Shown here piece by piece: positions 12,453-44,456 of a stretch of 64,000 bases of DNA. The notes beneath the pieces are model-generated. The model had not been told where the DNA came from and searched no databases. It saw only the letters and a program-made list of their open reading frames with translations. The first letter of the stretch is position 1. Each line of letters begins with the position of its first letter. The translations under genes and the position numbers were made by a program. The stretch lies in assembly GCA_015075625.1 (NCBI GenBank), contig JABTTZ010000002.1, positions 62,001-126,000 of the forward strand, in the 5' to 3' direction. Origin of the DNA: Anaerolineales bacterium (GTDB lineage Bacteria; Chloroflexota; Anaerolineae; Aggregatilineales; UBA2796).

Positions 12453-12590
12453 CCCCCTATTGGTTAACAGCCTTACTCATCACAATAGACTTACCGATGG
12501 GTTATGCTGCGGTGATCAAGGGGTAAACGAACTACGCTCGTCCTTCTTGTAAGAAAGTTGGTTGCAGTCCAACCGGCAAGGGTACGGCAA
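12427..12590 (+). repeat. Dispersed promoter-RNA element, copy A
   Basis: This 164-bp block matches 42765-42930 and 45895-46060 along its full length, including the upstream CCTACA and the downstream GGTAC-GCAA end. It carries TTAACA and TAGACT 16 bp apart, a long-range GATGGG/CTCGTC pairing, a CTTCTTGTAAGAAAG hairpin and a GTTGGTTG/CAACCGGC hairpin. The last shows G-U and compensatory changes relative to the other copies. It starts inside the upstream glycosyltransferase gene and ends just before the promoter of a T-box leader. Confidence 0.7.
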
Positions 12591-12606
12591 TAGACAATTT
12601 CCTAAC

Positions 12607-12636
12607 TTGACCTTGATCATTGCCCTGTGTTATCCT
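12607..12636 (+). promoter_or_regulatory. Promoter of the T-box transcript
   Basis: TTGACC (12607-12612) and TATCCT (12631-12636) are 18 bp apart and sit immediately before the first bases of the T-box stem I region. Confidence 0.5.
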
Positions 12637-12639
12637 GAG

Positions 12640-12948
12640 ACGACAATCACATAGACCAATGGCTGTGATGGAAACCAGTAGGTGGTGTGCAGCGATCAGC
12701 GAATCCGGGAATGGTGAGAGCCGGATCGGAAGCGCCGCCGAATATCCTTCCTGAGCCGCGATCTGAACAACGAGAGAATCCTTGTGGTCTCTTTTTAAGT
12801 AAGATAGTGCCGGGGTTATGCCGTCCGTTATACGGCGCGAGTGCCTGTCTTGGCGCATGATTGCTCATGCCTGATCAGGAATTAGGGTGGCACCACGGGA
12901 GTTGATACGGATGCTCTCGTCCCTTTTGGGACGGGGGCATTTTTTTTG
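12640..12948 (+). promoter_or_regulatory. T-box riboswitch leader, Ile (AUC) specifier
   Basis: The T-box sequence AGGGTGGCACCACGGG (12884-12899) is followed by an intrinsic terminator: a 13-bp stem 12911-12940 with a TTTT loop and an eight-T tail. Stem I is recognisable: AGTA on the 5' side of the specifier loop, an ATCCGG/CCGGAT stem capped by GAATGGTGAGAG, and GAA-T-ATC before TTCCTGAGC, which places codon AUC (12744-12746) as specifier. Uncharged tRNA-Ile should favour readthrough. The UGGC of the T-box would pair best with a G discriminator rather than the A of most tRNA-Ile, a small inconsistency. The immediate downstream gene is not an Ile gene; ileS is 3.2 kb further on. Confidence 0.85.
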
Positions 12949-12960
12949 AGGAGGCGTACT

Positions 12961-13200
12961 GTGCCTATTCACGAGGGTCAAAGCGCTCAAGGAATTCAAT
13001 TGGAATCGGTGATCACCTGTCCGGCATGTGGGTTTTCCAAAACAGAAACGATGCCCACTGATGTTTGCCAGTTTTTCTATGTGTGCAGCGCTTGCGGGAC
13101 ACGCTTGCGCCCCAAAGAGGGGGATTGTTGTGTGTTTTGTTCGTATGGCAGTGTCCCTTGCCCACCGAAACAAGACCAGACATGTTCGACCTGCTCCTAG
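12961..13200 (+). CDS. Small cysteine-rich GDCCVFCSYG-type protein
   Basis: A 79-residue protein starting with GTG after a strong GAGGAGG site, 12 bp past the T-box terminator. It has CPACG, CSACG, GDCCVFCSYG and a CSTC end, ten cysteines in all, pointing to metal binding. Proteins with the GDCCVFCSYG segment are, as far as I recall, often found beside mercury or other metal-transport genes; no such transporter is here. It is the first gene behind the T-box, so its expression should follow tRNA-Ile charging. The exact role is unknown. Confidence 0.75.
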   Translation: MPIHEGQSAQGIQLESVITCPACGFSKTETMPTDVCQFFYVCSACGTRLRPKEGDCCVFCSYGSVPCPPKQDQTCSTCS

Positions 13201-13228
13201 TGAAGGAAAAGGATTAAAGACTCCGCTT

Positions 13229-13720
13229 ATGCCAGAAATCATCGTTCGCCGTGCCTCAGAGGGCGATCTGGAACGGATGCGTGCCATATGGCGTGAGGCA
13301 GCCGATCAGTATGCCACCCTTGACCCGCGTTACAAAGTCGCCCCCGATGGCGAGGCGCAGTGGGAAACCGCCCTCCGCAGTTGGCTTGTGCGGGCGGATA
13401 CAGCGGTCTTGGTCGGTGTTATCGAGGGAAAACCCCTCGGCTATTTGGTGGGGATGGTAGAACATGGACGTCCGGGCTTTTTACCAGAGCGGTACGGCTA
13501 TGTCAGTGAGCTTGCCGTTGATTTTCACACGAAACAGGGCGGCATGGGGCGAGCGCTTTTGAAGGCGTTCAAGGGGTGGCTGGCGGAACAAGGAATCGCC
13601 CATTTAGAGGCGCGTGTCCCGCTGGCTCAGCCCATTGCCCAAGCCTTTTGGCGAGCGCTTGGGGCGGGTAAGGTGTACGATCAAATGTGGCTGCCTGTGG
13701 GATCATCGGTAGGGGAGTGA
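13229..13720 (+). CDS. GNAT-family N-acetyltransferase
   Basis: The 163-residue frame from ATG 13229 fits a single GNAT domain: N-terminal IIVRRASEGDLERM, the central strand YVSELAVDFHTKQGGMGRALL with the acetyl-CoA pyrophosphate loop (Q/G-x-x-G-M-G), and the ARVPLAQPIAQAFWRALG C-terminal motif. An in-frame extension back to 13028 overlaps the preceding gene and is not part of the family. It sits 28 bp after the Cys-rich gene in the T-box transcript. The acceptor substrate is unknown. Confidence 0.85.
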   Translation: MPEIIVRRASEGDLERMRAIWREAADQYATLDPRYKVAPDGEAQWETALRSWLVRADTAVLVGVIEGKPLGYLVGMVEHGRPGFLPERYGYVSELAVDFHTKQGGMGRALLKAFKGWLAEQGIAHLEARVPLAQPIAQAFWRALGAGKVYDQMWLPVGSSVGE

Positions 13721-13729
13721 GGAAAACCA

Positions 13730-14764
13730 GTGGTTCATCGAATCTCAGTCAGCCTGACCCGCTTTGCCGCATGGTTAGGAGTAGGGCGAGCGCAGTTTCT
13801 TTTTGCCTTATTCGGCGGAACAGGGCTTGCCAGTCTGATTCTGAACGCCGTCCGCCCCGCTCCGGCGTGGGTTGCCCCCCTCCAATCGCTACTGGCAGCC
13901 GGAGCGCTGGTTGGGGCAGCGCTGATTATCGTGACGAATTACCCAAGCGCCGAGCGGCGACAGGCGCTTTATGTGATCGTTCCAGCAGTGGGAGCGCTGG
14001 TCGTCGCGCTGCTCATCCCTTCTTTGTCCGTCGTCATGGTGGTGCTGGCGGTGGGCTGGTTGGTGATTGCCGCAGTGACGCTCCGTTCTCAAGTCCGCCA
14101 AGAGTATCAAGCAGCGATCAAGCTGCTCCGCAAAGGGGAGTACGAGGAAGCGATCAAGGTGATGACGGGGTTGATCAAGGCGGAAGGAGCGGCTGCCGAT
14201 CACTACCGTTTTCGGGCAGAACTGTATCGCTTGACGGGAAAGGTGAAAAAGGCACGGACAGATTATGAACGGGTGATTGCTCTGACGCCTGATTCTGGGG
14301 TAGGCTACAACGGCGTTGCCGAATTACTGCTGCAAGTAGGCAATTATTCCGAAGCGCTCACCTTTGCTCACGAGGCGCTCTCGCGTGAGCCAAACCAATG
14401 GGTGGCAGCCTACAACACAGGGATGATCGAAGATCGCTTGGGGATGTGGCGTGAGGCGGAACATCACCTTCAACAAGCGTTAGACGCCGTGATCCCCGAC
14501 AGCCGTCACCGCTTGTTGGCGCATTTTTGGATGCTCCGCGCACGCTTACAACAGGATGACAGAGAGGGTGTAGAAAAGGCGCTGCTCAAGCTGAAGGCAG
14601 AACGTGCGGGGCTGCGTGAATGGCAAACAATCTTCGAGAGCGCCGATGCCGCCATTCTGCGAGACGTTTTAGCAGTGGACGTTGAATTAGCCGGAGGGCT
14701 GGCAGAGGGTAAACTCTCGCCAGATGCCCTTAAGGAAACCGAGGGCAGCACAGGAGGAAACTAA
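13730..14764 (+). CDS. Membrane-bound TPR protein
   Basis: A 344-residue protein with about four N-terminal membrane segments (about 22-125) followed by tetratricopeptide repeats from about 125 to 300: YRFRAELYRLTGKVKKARTDYERVIALTPD, GVAELLLQVGNYSEALTFAHEAL and NTGMIEDRLGMWREAEHHLQQAL. The start is GTG 13730, preceded by GGGGAGTGAGGA. The cytoplasmic TPR region is likely a protein-binding scaffold. It lies 9 bp after the GNAT gene and 2 bp before the next one, so it is clearly in the same operon. No enzymatic motif is present. Confidence 0.82.
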   Translation: MVHRISVSLTRFAAWLGVGRAQFLFALFGGTGLASLILNAVRPAPAWVAPLQSLLAAGALVGAALIIVTNYPSAERRQALYVIVPAVGALVVALLIPSLSVVMVVLAVGWLVIAAVTLRSQVRQEYQAAIKLLRKGEYEEAIKVMTGLIKAEGAAADHYRFRAELYRLTGKVKKARTDYERVIALTPDSGVGYNGVAELLLQVGNYSEALTFAHEALSREPNQWVAAYNTGMIEDRLGMWREAEHHLQQALDAVIPDSRHRLLAHFWMLRARLQQDDREGVEKALLKLKAERAGLREWQTIFESADAAILRDVLAVDVELAGGLAEGKLSPDALKETEGSTGGN

Positions 14765-14766
14765 TC

Positions 14767-15261
14767 ATGACGGAAGCCGTTGGAAATTCACCAGAAGCAG
14801 CCGCACCAAGTGCGGTACGCCCGAATCGCTTTTTACGGACATTGCTCATCCTGCTGGCAGCGGGAGTGGTTGTTGCTATCCTCGCCAATTTGATTCTGAA
14901 TGGGCAGCGAGGCGCTCGGAATTCACCTCTTTCTTATGAGGAATTCCCCGGCGCAGTCAAGTTGGAAGAATTCAAGGCGCAAGGCGAAGACCGCACCATC
15001 TACGAGACAAAGGCAACGGTCAATCAAGTCTTTGAATTCTATGGGACGCGGCTAGGGAAAGAGCAGACCAGCGGATGTAAGAAGATTTACACCACCGACC
15101 CGCCCGATGCCGAGACGCCCGGAAAATCCTTTGCCCGCTGTGTGATCGATAATTCGCAGGATGAGATCGCCCAGACGCTCATGATCAGCATTACATACGA
15201 CCTTACCAATGAGCGCACCTTGATTGAAGTGGTGCGCGAATGGGGCAGCCGTGGGAGCTGA
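14767..15261 (+). CDS. Small single-pass membrane protein
   Basis: A 164-residue protein with an excellent AGGAGG site nine bases before the ATG. One membrane helix (about 20-42) is followed by an exterior domain of about 110 residues with two cysteines (SGCKKIY, FARCVID) that could form a disulphide. I do not recognise the family. It is two bases behind the TPR gene and overlaps the next gene, which has a similar membrane-plus-small-domain layout; the two could be partners or diverged duplicates. Confidence 0.75.
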   Translation: MTEAVGNSPEAAAPSAVRPNRFLRTLLILLAAGVVVAILANLILNGQRGARNSPLSYEEFPGAVKLEEFKAQGEDRTIYETKATVNQVFEFYGTRLGKEQTSGCKKIYTTDPPDAETPGKSFARCVIDNSQDEIAQTLMISITYDLTNERTLIEVVREWGSRGS

Positions 15262-15760
15262 ACTACCTTCTTCTCCACTTGGGGTAGGGACAGGCAAGGG
15301 AGGGAGGGGGCTTCCGGCATGGCTGCCCCTTCTGGTAATGCTTGCCGCCTTTGCCCTCGCAGTGATCGTCGGGGTGCGGGTCTGTCCTGTCCTGAGCATC
15401 CTGCTTTTTCCGCCCGCACCGCCGCTGCCGCCGGGGGATGTTAAGCTGATCACAGAGTTCCCATCGGGCGGCATCGATTACGGCGAATGGCTCTACGGGA
15501 CAGACATCAAGCCCTGTGAGGTCGTCGCGTACTATCAAGATCGGGTGGGCGACTGCGGCTTCGATATTGACTCGGGGTGTGGACGCAGCCCCGATTGGGG
15601 GCTGCTCCCCCGCGATGGACAGGCATTTCCGGTGGCAGCCTGTCAGGGCGTGCAGCGTTACGGTCCCTTTTACAGTGTCCGCTGGACGGTTCGTATTGCC
15701 GCTGGCTATACCGAAGATGGGAATACCCATATCCGCATCACCCGCGATGTCGGTGATTAA
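15251..15760 (+). CDS. Small membrane-anchored protein, paired with upstream gene
   Basis: The open frame extends back to a TTG at 15224; I favour the GTG at 15251, which overlaps the previous stop by 11 bp and lacks a clear ribosome site. The protein has one membrane helix (PLLVMLAAFALAVIVGVRV), a Pro-rich linker and an exterior domain with five cysteines (PCEVVAYYQ, GDCGFDIDSGCG, VAACQG). Like its neighbour it looks like an exported disulphide-bonded domain. Function unknown. It is the last gene of the run behind the T-box before the MITE-filled gap. Confidence 0.65.
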   Translation: MGAELPSSPLGVGTGKGGRGLPAWLPLLVMLAAFALAVIVGVRVCPVLSILLFPPAPPLPPGDVKLITEFPSGGIDYGEWLYGTDIKPCEVVAYYQDRVGDCGFDIDSGCGRSPDWGLLPRDGQAFPVAACQGVQRYGPFYSVRWTVRIAAGYTEDGNTHIRITRDVGD

Positions 15761-15793
15761 GCATTGGCAGCGATGAGGTCACAGATTGAATCA

Positions 15794-15930
15794 CCCACCT
15801 TACGCAATTGGGTTTGTTCACCCCGTATTCATCCAAAGGGGCAGATTGAGGGAGAAGCCCCCTCAAAAAATGCATTCCCCCTCTCCCGCGGGAGAGGGGG
15901 CTAGGGGGTGAGGGTCTGTGTGTAAGGTGG
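15794..15930. mobile_element. MITE, family 1, 8-bp target duplication TTGAATCA
   Basis: The ends are CCCACCTTACGCAATTGGG and its inverse GTGTGTAAGGTGG, flanked by TTGAATCA at 15786-15793 and 15931-15938. The internal GGGAGAGGGGGCTAGGGGGTGAGGG block is shared with other intergenic repeats. It differs from the 5356 copy by a longer middle. It lies between the T-box gene run and ileS and its long hairpin could weaken readthrough. Confidence 0.8.
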
Positions 15931-15953
15931 TTGAATCAGATCGGCAGCGCCCT

Positions 15954-16116
15954 CTATGTACCGCCACAAACGTTCTTTGGGGTGAAGAGGGTGAAGAGGG
16001 TAGAACAACCAGTGCGAGGATGCCTTTCAAGCCCCGAAGGGGTGGCTGCTTTCAGCCCGCTGCTTTAGCGGCGGGATCATGCGCCATGCCGCTTGGTTCA
16101 TTGTGGTTGTACTCAG
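15954..16116. mobile_element. MITE-like element, family 2 (CTAAGTAC ends)
   Basis: The left end CTATGTACCGCCACAA and right end GTTGTACTCAG are imperfect inverses. The middle contains CAAGCCCCGAAGGGGTGGCTGCT and the palindrome GCCCGCTGCTTTAGCGGCGGG. Copies with the same order occur at 36964-37116 and, shortened, 37886-37974. It fills the 418-bp gap upstream of ileS together with the family 1 element; no T-box or other leader is visible next to ileS. Confidence 0.6.
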
Positions 16117-16178
16117 TCTGCTTTGGGTGAGTGTCAAAACGCTATTCGAGTAGGAACAACAGCAAGGGTTTTTCAGCA

Positions 16179-19100
16179 ATGAAGTTCAAACCGGTCTCGT
16201 CCCGTGTGGACATCCAAGCCCTAGAGGGTGAACAACTCGCCTTCTGGCGCGAGAAGAAAGTCTTTGAGCGCACCCGTACCGAGCGCGAAAGCGGCAAACG
16301 CTATGTCTTTTATGAAGGACCGCCAACGGCGAACGGACGCCCGGGCATCCATCACGTTATGGCGCGGTCTTTCAAAGATTTATTCCCTCGCTACCACATC
16401 ATGAAGGGCGAATACGTTCTGCGCAAGGGTGGTTGGGATACGCACGGGCTGCCCGTTGAGATCGAGGTAGAGAAAGAACTCGGCATCAACCACAAGCGCG
16501 AGATCGAGGCGTATGGCATTGCCGAATTCAACAAAAAGTGCCGCGAAAGCGTTCTGCGCTACCTTGAGGATTGGGAACGCCTGACGGAACGGATGGGATT
16601 CTGGGTCTCTTTGGAGGATGCTTACGTCACCTTCAAGAACGAGTACATCGAATCCGTGTGGTGGATTCTGAAGCAGTTCTTTGATAAGGACTTGCTCTTT
16701 CAGGATTACAAAACCGTCCCCTACTGCGCCCGCTGCGGGACTCCGCTGAGCAGCCACGAAATCTCGGACGCCTATGAAGATGTAGACGATCCCTCGGTGT
16801 TCGTCCGCTTTCGGCTGAAAGATGAGCCGAACACTGCCTTCCTTGTCTGGACGACGACCCCCTGGACGCTCCCCGGCAATGTCGCCCTTGCCGTCGGGCG
16901 GGAGGTTGATTATGTCCTTGTTGAGGGACCGGCGCAGTATGGCGCAGAAGGCGAGACAGAACGCCTGATCTTGGCAAAGGCGCTCATGGGGAAGGCGCTC
17001 AAAAAGCCAGAGTTGTACACGGTTGTTCGGGAAATGAAGGGTGCAGACCTTCTAGGCAAGCACTACGAGCCGCTGTATACCTTCCTCCCCGTCACGGCGG
17101 ATTACGCCTATGTGGTGGATGGATCGCACTTCGTCAGCACCGAGGATGGGTCGGGCATTGTCCATATTGCCCCCGCTTTTGGTCAGGACGATATGGAAAT
17201 GGGCAAGGCAAACCGGCTGCCGACGCTGCTCACGGTGAAAGCGGATGGGGCGTTTGTGGATGCGGTAACGCCCTGGGCGGGCGTCTGGGTGAAGGATGCC
17301 GATCCACAGATCATCAAAGAACTGCGCGGGCGAAAACTGTTGTTTCGGGCAGAGACGTACCGCCACCCCTACCCGTTCTGTTGGCGGTGCAAATCGCCCC
17401 TACTCTACTATGCCCGTGAGACGTGGTATATTCGCACGACCCAGTTCCGCGATGAACTGGTCGGCTTGAACGATACAATCCACTGGACGCCTGACCACAT
17501 CCGCGATGGGCGTTTTGGGATGTGGCTGGCAAACAACCGCGATTGGGCATTGGGGCGCGAACGCTATTGGGGGACGCCGCTTCCCGTCTGGGTGTGTGAT
17601 AACCCTGAGTGCAAGCACAAGGAATGTGTTGGCGGGGCAAAGGAACTCAGCGCGAAGGTTGGGCGCGACCTGAGCGATCTTGACCTTCACCGCCCCTATG
17701 TTGATGAGGTGACATGGACATGTGCGGCGTGCAGTACGGGGACGATGCGCCGCGTCCCAGAACTGATCGATGTCTGGTTCGATTCAGGGGCGATGCCCTT
17801 TGCCCAGTGGGGCTACCCACACGGCGGCGAGGCGGCGAACAAACTCTTTGAAGAACAGTTCCCGGCAGATTACATCTGCGAGGCAATCGATCAGACACGC
17901 GGCTGGTTCTACAGTCTGCACGCCATCTCAACACTGCTGATGGGCAGTGTCGCTTACAAAAATGTGATCTGTTTGGGGCATCTTTTGGACGAACACGGGA
18001 AGAAAATGTCCAAGAGCAAGGGCAACGTGGTTGATCCTTGGTCGATCCTCAATAAGCAGGGGGCGGACACCGCCCGCTGGTATATGTACACAAGCGCCCC
18101 GCCGGGGGATAGCCGCCGCTTTTCGGGGAAACTTGTCGATGAGGTGATCAGCGGCTTTTACCTGACGCTGTGGAACACCTATAGTTTCTTCGTCACCTAT
18201 GCCAACCTTGATTTCGCCGATGTGCGCGATATGCTGCGGGAAACTGTCCCCCTCCGCGCCCGTGATGAACTGGATCGTTGGATTTTAGGGGAGTTGAACA
18301 CGCTCATCAGAACCGTCACACAGGCGTATGAGACCTACGATGTGACGGGCTGCACGCGCCCCATCGAAACATTCGTGGATGACCTCTCGAATTGGTGGCT
18401 GCGCCGTTCCCGCCGCCGTTTCTGGCAAGATTCCAGCGACGCGCAACATACGGCGAAACGTGCCGCCTATCAGACGCTCTATGAATGCCTGGTGGGAGTG
18501 GCGCGGCTGCTTGCTCCGGCAATGCCTTTCCTTGCCGAGGCGCTCTATCGCGGCTTGGTCACCGATCTGGATCCAACGGCGGCGGACAGCGTTCATCTGA
18601 CGGCATGGCTGACGCCCAACGAATCGGTGATCGATCAGACGCTGCTGGACGAGATGCGGCTGATCAAACGTCTTGTCAGCCTCGGACACGCAGCCCGAAA
18701 CAGCGTCAATCTGAAGGTGCGCCAACCGCTTGCCGAAGCCTCGTTTGGCGTGCGCACGGCGGCAGAAGCAGCCGCGCTGCGTCGCATGGCGCACACAGTG
18801 GGCGAAGAACTGAACGTGAAAGCAGTCCATGTCTTGGACGACTCTGCTACGGGAATGATGGTCAGCTATGTCCTGAACCCGCTCCCAGTGAAACTAGGGA
18901 AACGGTTGGGCAAGCACTTTCCGGCGGTGCAAAAGACACTCCGCGAGGGGGACGCTGCCAGCGTCACAGCATGGGCAACCGCGCTGCTTAAGGGGCAAAA
19001 TGTCACCCTCGCCGTGAATGGCGCCTCGGTGGAGGTGACCCCCGATGAAGTGGAAGTGCTGCGGCGGGCGGCAGAGGGCTTTACCGTTGCTGAGGAAAAC

Positions 19101-42930: not shown

Positions 42931-42999
42931 AATCTACGAAACCTTAACACTCTTGCCCTAGACAGGATTCTTTACTCATGGTAACCTTTCCCCTGCCTG

Positions 43000-43197
43000 C
43001 TGTGTGCGTGATGTCGCACCCGGTTTTGCGCCAACACCCATCTGAAGGGCATCCCCTTCTGGGGAAAACGTGATAGACCTCGGTCAAGACGCTTACTCCA
43101 GAAAGATGACCCACCTGCGAAAGCAGGTGCAAAACAGCGCGTCACACGGCATAGCGGGTTTTTTCTGAGAATAACACCCTCATATTGTGGGGGTGTT
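43000..43197 (+). promoter_or_regulatory. Unassigned structured 5' leader with terminator
   Basis: The 475-bp gap before the second epimerase holds copy B and then this leader. CTGTGTG (43000) can pair with CACACGG (43143-43149), enclosing CATCT/AGATG, GAAGGG-CATC-CCCTTC, TGGGG/CTCCA, GACC-TC-GGTC and CACCTGC-GAAA-GCAGGTG. It ends in AACACCC (43173)/GGGTGTT with a T-tail, 20 bp before the ATG. I cannot match it to a known riboswitch class. Pairings are by eye. Confidence 0.5.
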
Positions 43198-44384: not shown

Positions 44385-44456
44385 TCCGGAGTAGCTCAAT
44401 GGCAGAGCAATCGGCTGTTAACCGATGGGTTGTAGGTTCGAGTCCTACCTCCGGAG
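44385..44456 (+). tRNA. tRNA-Asn (GTT)
   Basis: A full cloverleaf: acceptor TCCGGAG/CTCCGGA, D arm GCTC...GAGC, anticodon stem ATCGG/CCGAT with loop CTGTTAA (anticodon GTT), T arm GTAGG-TTCGAGT-CCTAC and discriminator G. The CCA end is not encoded. Confidence 0.97.

Follow-up and report, generated by a model that had tools for sequence, protein, structure and literature searches.

An isoleucine T-box that lies 3.2 kb upstream of ileS, with five other genes in between, poses the question of whether the leader and the synthetase gene still belong together. The arrangement occurs in the stretch of 64,000 nucleotides analysed here (the window), from a genome of the Chloroflexota. An earlier note on this DNA, made from the sequence alone, offered two readings: either the T-box was once the leader of ileS and has been separated from it by the insertion of a foreign gene run, or the whole run is one long operon that responds to isoleucine. 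Judging from the comparisons below, the T-box, ileS and the genes between them most likely form a single transcription unit that responds to isoleucine. The features concerned are the following (window coordinates).

12607–12636, plus strand: possible promoter directly before the T-box (TTGACC, 18 nt, TG before TATCCT; consensus match only)
12656–12927, plus strand: T-box leader, specifier AUC (Ile) (Rfam RF00230 covariance match)
12885–12897, plus strand: antiterminator T-box sequence GGGTGGCACCACG (sequence, Rfam match)
12909–12948, plus strand: intrinsic terminator of the T-box (15-pair stem and T run)
12961–13200, plus strand: small Cys-rich protein with a GDCCVxC domain, 79 aa (NCBIfam NF041374, 102.8 bits)
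13229–13720, plus strand: GNAT acetyltransferase (PF00583)
13730–14764, plus strand: TPR membrane protein (Pfam TPR)
14767–15261, plus strand: M1, single-pass membrane protein with two invariant cysteines (alignment; model pLDDT 89.9)
15251–15760, plus strand: M2, single-pass membrane protein, topology as M1 (alignment; model pLDDT 82.4)
15787–15938, plus strand: MITE-like repeat present at about 44 genomic places; 20-nt terminal inverted repeats (85%)
15990–16103, plus strand: second multicopy repeat, about 50 places in the genome
16179–19406, plus strand: ileS, isoleucyl-tRNA synthetase (TIGR00392, 918.6 bits)

The regulator of the window is an ordinary Ile T-box. Its covariance match reaches 94.8 bits with cmscan, just above the gathering score of 93. 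The specifier loop reads GAA-U-AUC-C, and its AUC codon (12744–12746) matches the amino acid of the ileS gene in the same run. A T-box sequence of the UGGNACC type (GGGUGGCACCACGG at 12885) is present together with the competing terminator, whose fold (12909–12942, -29.1 kcal/mol) is well below those of its shuffles (z -3.3); the whole leader, judged on free energy only, has an unremarkable fold (z -0.9). The T-box, its specifier and its strong terminator are thus as the earlier note had described them. We surveyed the specifiers of 43 leaders, including that of the window, and parsed 32 of them; the pattern left 11 unparsed, four of these from family f8. All 32 parsed homologous leaders at ileS loci have AUC, in a loop that is mostly GAAAAUCC, with a variable base before the codon. 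The promoter-like matches were near chance (3 found versus 1.6 expected in shuffles).

The genes behind the T-box, from the Cys-rich protein to the two membrane proteins, also come in the order that the earlier note gave, and ileS follows on the same strand. There is a single copy of ileS in the genome. The genes before it are tightly packed, with 28 bp between the GDCCVxC and GNAT genes, 9 bp between GNAT and TPR, 2 bp between TPR and M1, and an overlap of M1 and M2. The last two share a predicted topology (one membrane helix, then strand-strand-helix-strands), both have conserved cysteines, and they look like paralogues. A Foldseek search of the PDB with the M1 model returned nothing that reached E 0.001 (TM-scores near 0.3); assigning a function from the fold was hence dropped, and we claim none.

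Gene order in relatives

For 41 genomes we combined the positions of T-boxes, TPR genes and ileS, and we mapped every part of the loci so defined. The run T-box-GNAT-TPR-M1-M2-ileS, on one strand and in fixed order, is common to three families of the order: f1 (G000, G001, G002, G006), f4 (G013, G020, G026, G031, G036 and nine more, one without a TPR match) and f8 (G017, G028, G033, G038, G119, G127, G134). Forty further loci of the order agree, with a T-box core in every f4 locus that is sufficiently long and in three of the four further f8 loci. Most genomes of f3 have T-box-AlaX-c10-c22-ileS. In f2 and f5 the run TPR-...-ileS comes without a T-box, and most f2 loci have AlaX and GNAT upstream. 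Genus g5 of f1 has the run divided between two places, GNAT-TPR at one and M1-M2-ileS at the other. Permissive Rfam scans of a sample of loci from g5, G004, f2 and f5 found no T-box, and we rejected the idea that it had merely been overlooked there.

The GDCCVxC gene behaves differently from the rest of the run. Its homologues in relatives are found elsewhere only, never at the site of the ileS operon, and the congeneric genome G001 has T-box-GNAT-TPR-M1-M2-ileS without the GDCCVxC gene and without either repeat at the locus. By these gene orders, nothing but these three elements was added recently in the lineage of the window. An arrangement in which the T-box is tied to the Cys-rich gene and ileS has a separate T-box was looked for in relatives and not seen.

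In other orders of the class, the T-box directly precedes ileS in about a dozen genomes (e.g., G066, G110, G098, G064, G092, G102). More than a dozen others have it ahead of AlaX-ileS, and in four it is followed by GNAT, alone or with AlaX, and ileS (examples of AlaX and/or GNAT between T-box and ileS are G050, G057, G070, G073, G045, G046, G096 and G103). Rfam scores at sampled loci of both groups, direct and via AlaX or GNAT, were 73–113 bits in six cases and 52.7 bits in the seventh. The best match of the window's GNAT lies within an ileS operon in all eight genomes tested, four of them from other orders. More generally, many genomes of the class have a gene for an AlaX-type alanyl-tRNA editing protein next to ileS or the Ile T-box (L074 5321–6040, L105, L109, L116, L136 and others).

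Because GNAT is tied to the ileS operon and T-box-ileS arrangements occur in other orders, the T-box is, as far as gene order tells, the ancestral leader of ileS-containing transcription units across the class. The simplest history would begin with T-box and ileS as an ancestral unit, which GNAT and AlaX joined early. GNAT and later, in this order, TPR, M1 and M2 would have been added between leader and ileS, and the order then kept in several families. In the species of the window, the GDCCVxC gene and two repeats that form no plus-strand terminator would be the sole recent additions.

The extent of the transcription unit

The gap between M2 and ileS is 418 bp long and contains two repeats, which the earlier note had taken for two MITEs. 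Both are multicopy, and the element at 15787–15938, which is short, lacks a transposase gene and has about 43 further matches in the genome, is MITE-like; the one at 15990–16103 (about 49 further matches, a weak match to Acido-Lenti-1 on the minus strand) is classed as a multicopy repeat. Less both repeats, the gap would be about 150 bp; in relatives it measures 140–330 bp, and in genus g5 32–36 bp. In agreement with the earlier note, no second T-box turned up before ileS, either with cmscan across the window or in a permissive scan of 12500–16300. There is no strong plus-strand terminator between 12949 and 16179, that of the T-box being the only strong one. The hairpin of the MITE was considered as an operon terminator and ruled out, since it has no T run on the plus strand.

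The T-box probably serves as transcriptional leader for a single long operon, (GDCCVxC)-GNAT-TPR-M1-M2-ileS. The genes are on the same strand in a conserved order, they are separated by 2–28 bp or overlap as far as M2, the following gap is only 32–36 bp in g5, and no internal terminator is found; gene order, gaps and the terminator scan together suggest that the transcript continues to ileS. From T-box biology, we infer tRNA sensing, antitermination and read-through to ileS. Uncharged tRNA-Ile (anticodon GAU) would pair with the AUC specifier and the antiterminator, upon which RNA polymerase would pass the terminator at 12909–12948 and transcribe the whole run including ileS, whereas charged tRNA-Ile would permit termination. 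What counts against a single operon is that g5 splits the run and shows no T-box at the loci tested, and that f2 and f5 keep the run without one, so that the linkage is not indispensable.

The T-box might instead govern the upstream genes only, with ileS transcribed from a promoter of its own, which the M2-ileS gap could contain. In most relatives this gap (140–330 bp) exceeds the others of the run, and M1-M2-ileS of g5 stands at a place without a T-box. We nevertheless regard this as improbable: a simple consensus scan of the window's gap gave no promoter-like match (Chloroflexota promoters may differ from that consensus), no plus-strand terminator separates M2 from ileS, an Ile-specific T-box would be left controlling no obvious Ile gene, and the same T-box directly precedes ileS in other orders. 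That mobile elements recently carried a foreign run between T-box and ileS in this genome, leaving ileS uncontrolled or newly promoted, would fit the direct T-box-ileS neighbours of other orders, the multicopy repeats in the gap and the absence of the GDCCVxC gene from the site in relatives, but we hold it to be very unlikely, because it is largely refuted by the run shared with its T-box among f1, f4 and f8, by GNAT within the ileS operon of other orders, and by G001, which has the run without the window's repeats.

The same comparisons settle the insertion proposed in the earlier note. The gene run is not foreign, being kept with the T-box in three families and, in the case of GNAT, within the ileS operon beyond the order. 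The proposal that genes were added between a former ileS leader and ileS stands, given the T-boxes directly before ileS in other orders; within the order, f1, f4 and f8 have the full run, which speaks against a recent event. We therefore retain a single long operon as the preferred reading.

Other leaders in the relatives and in the genome

In f2 and f5, and in some members of f4 and f8, ileS is preceded at about 95–140 nt by a short ORF with a strong ribosome-binding site. Examples within the M2-ileS gap are L239, L240, L242 and L244 (f2), L216 (f4), L227 (f8) and L068 (f5). Under a strict definition it is present in 24 of 28 loci of f2, 5 of 15 of f4, 3 of 4 of f5 and 1 of 8 of f8, in none of the 11 loci of the window's own family f1, and in 1 of 40 outgroup loci; the rate in dinucleotide shuffles is 0.3–1.1%. 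An in-frame [RP]xI motif occurs in 22 of 28 f2 loci versus 0.1% in shuffles. The motif was picked after viewing the data, and the genomes share ancestry, so that these rates overstate independence. In 27 of 28 cases Ile is encoded by AUU. This codon follows the start at 30, 33, 36 or 39 nt in 19 f2 loci, always in frame, which argues for a coding leader ORF. A hairpin on the same stretch ends just before the AUU (mean z -2.5 versus mononucleotide shuffles, 32 sequences), and we replaced a purely coding interpretation by one in which coding and structure overlap. When the whole f2 leader was aligned with MAFFT, RNAalifold recovered a single 7-bp helix, because this alignment is gappy. The region has no Rfam match. 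The ORF and its hairpin form a candidate Ile-responsive leader-ORF attenuator. It is conceivable, at somewhat less than an even chance, that the order has swapped Ile sensors, with a T-box at the head of the operon in some families and a hairpin-embedded AUU leader ORF in f2 and f5 (both in parts of f4 and f8), and that GNAT, AlaX and TPR-M1-M2 are true members of an Ile-starvation response rather than passengers.

The genome has three T-boxes besides that of the window. One is the leader of leuS (L003 1501–1818, i.e., G000:C2:1249841–1250158, minus strand; specifier CUC; 72.6 bits, below the gathering score). A pattern search aimed at tRNA T-arms revealed that this leader encloses a tRNA-Ala(GGC) gene, which has the leader's orientation and sits between Stem III and the antiterminator; by an anticodon-arm pattern it is the only tRNA-Ala(GGC) detected in the genome. 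In six further genomes, from f4 and f8, ARAGORN found the same nested tRNA within a T-box match that spans it. A pattern scan of 84,980 species gave 32 matches, all in records whose titles name Chloroflexota or members of it and all 32 with tRNA-Ala(GGC), followed by leuS in most of the loci that could be parsed. Besides L003, loci with this arrangement are L143, L144, L145, L146, L150, L157 and L183–L214. No published description of a tRNA gene within a T-box leader was found in the literature covered, which excludes most subscription journals. Of the other two T-boxes, L004 (G000:C1:1582286–1582541, plus strand) stands before a methyltransferase-like gene, behind which comes an apparent valS, both identified by eye from the sequence, and is a second T-box with an intervening gene before a synthetase gene; L001 (G000:C2:310171–310443, minus strand) precedes a gene resembling that for anthranilate synthase component I (trpE). 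The window also contains a 6S RNA (42991–43164, plus strand; RF00013, 63 bits) and a tRNA gene (44385–44456).

Relation to known regulators

T-box operons with a distal synthetase gene are already on record, as is an ile-tRNA-ligase T-box in Chloroflexi, where a transcriptional T-box controlling ileS is reported for Dehalococcoides (PMC2494555). Like the ileS T-boxes of Firmicutes and Dehalococcoides, that of the window has Stem I, an AUC specifier, a T-box sequence, an antiterminator and a terminator, and would end up controlling ileS. It differs from them in that ileS is the sixth gene, 3.2 kb downstream, and in that the GNAT, TPR and two membrane-protein genes have no evident role in isoleucine metabolism. 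With the known distal-synthetase operons it shares a synthetase gene far behind a T-box of its own specificity; the gene set, in contrast, is GNAT, AlaX, TPR, M1 and M2, conserved over families of one order, and we found no published description of it in the literature searched. The leader ORFs of f2, f5 and some f4 and f8 genomes resemble the ribosome-mediated attenuators of trp and ilv type in that they are short, have their own ribosome-binding site and contain an Ile codon, and in that a hairpin accompanies them ahead of ileS. Unlike these, they have one conserved AUU and no run of Ile codons, lie inside an operon, match nothing in Rfam and are absent from the window. The type of regulator is thus already known, and the composition of the operon is apparently new, at least to us.

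The distance between T-box and ileS would then reflect an ancient and maintained operon design rather than damage, so that a distal synthetase can have had the genes nearest to its T-box as partners for a long time. The relatives and the other T-boxes offer two new RNA arrangements that can be tested: in one, a leader ORF is the candidate attenuator of ileS, and in the other a T-box leader encloses a tRNA gene. For a phylum that has been little studied, the locus itself ties several uncharacterised genes to isoleucine charging, namely those for a GNAT, a TPR protein, two membrane proteins and an editing protein of the AlaX type.
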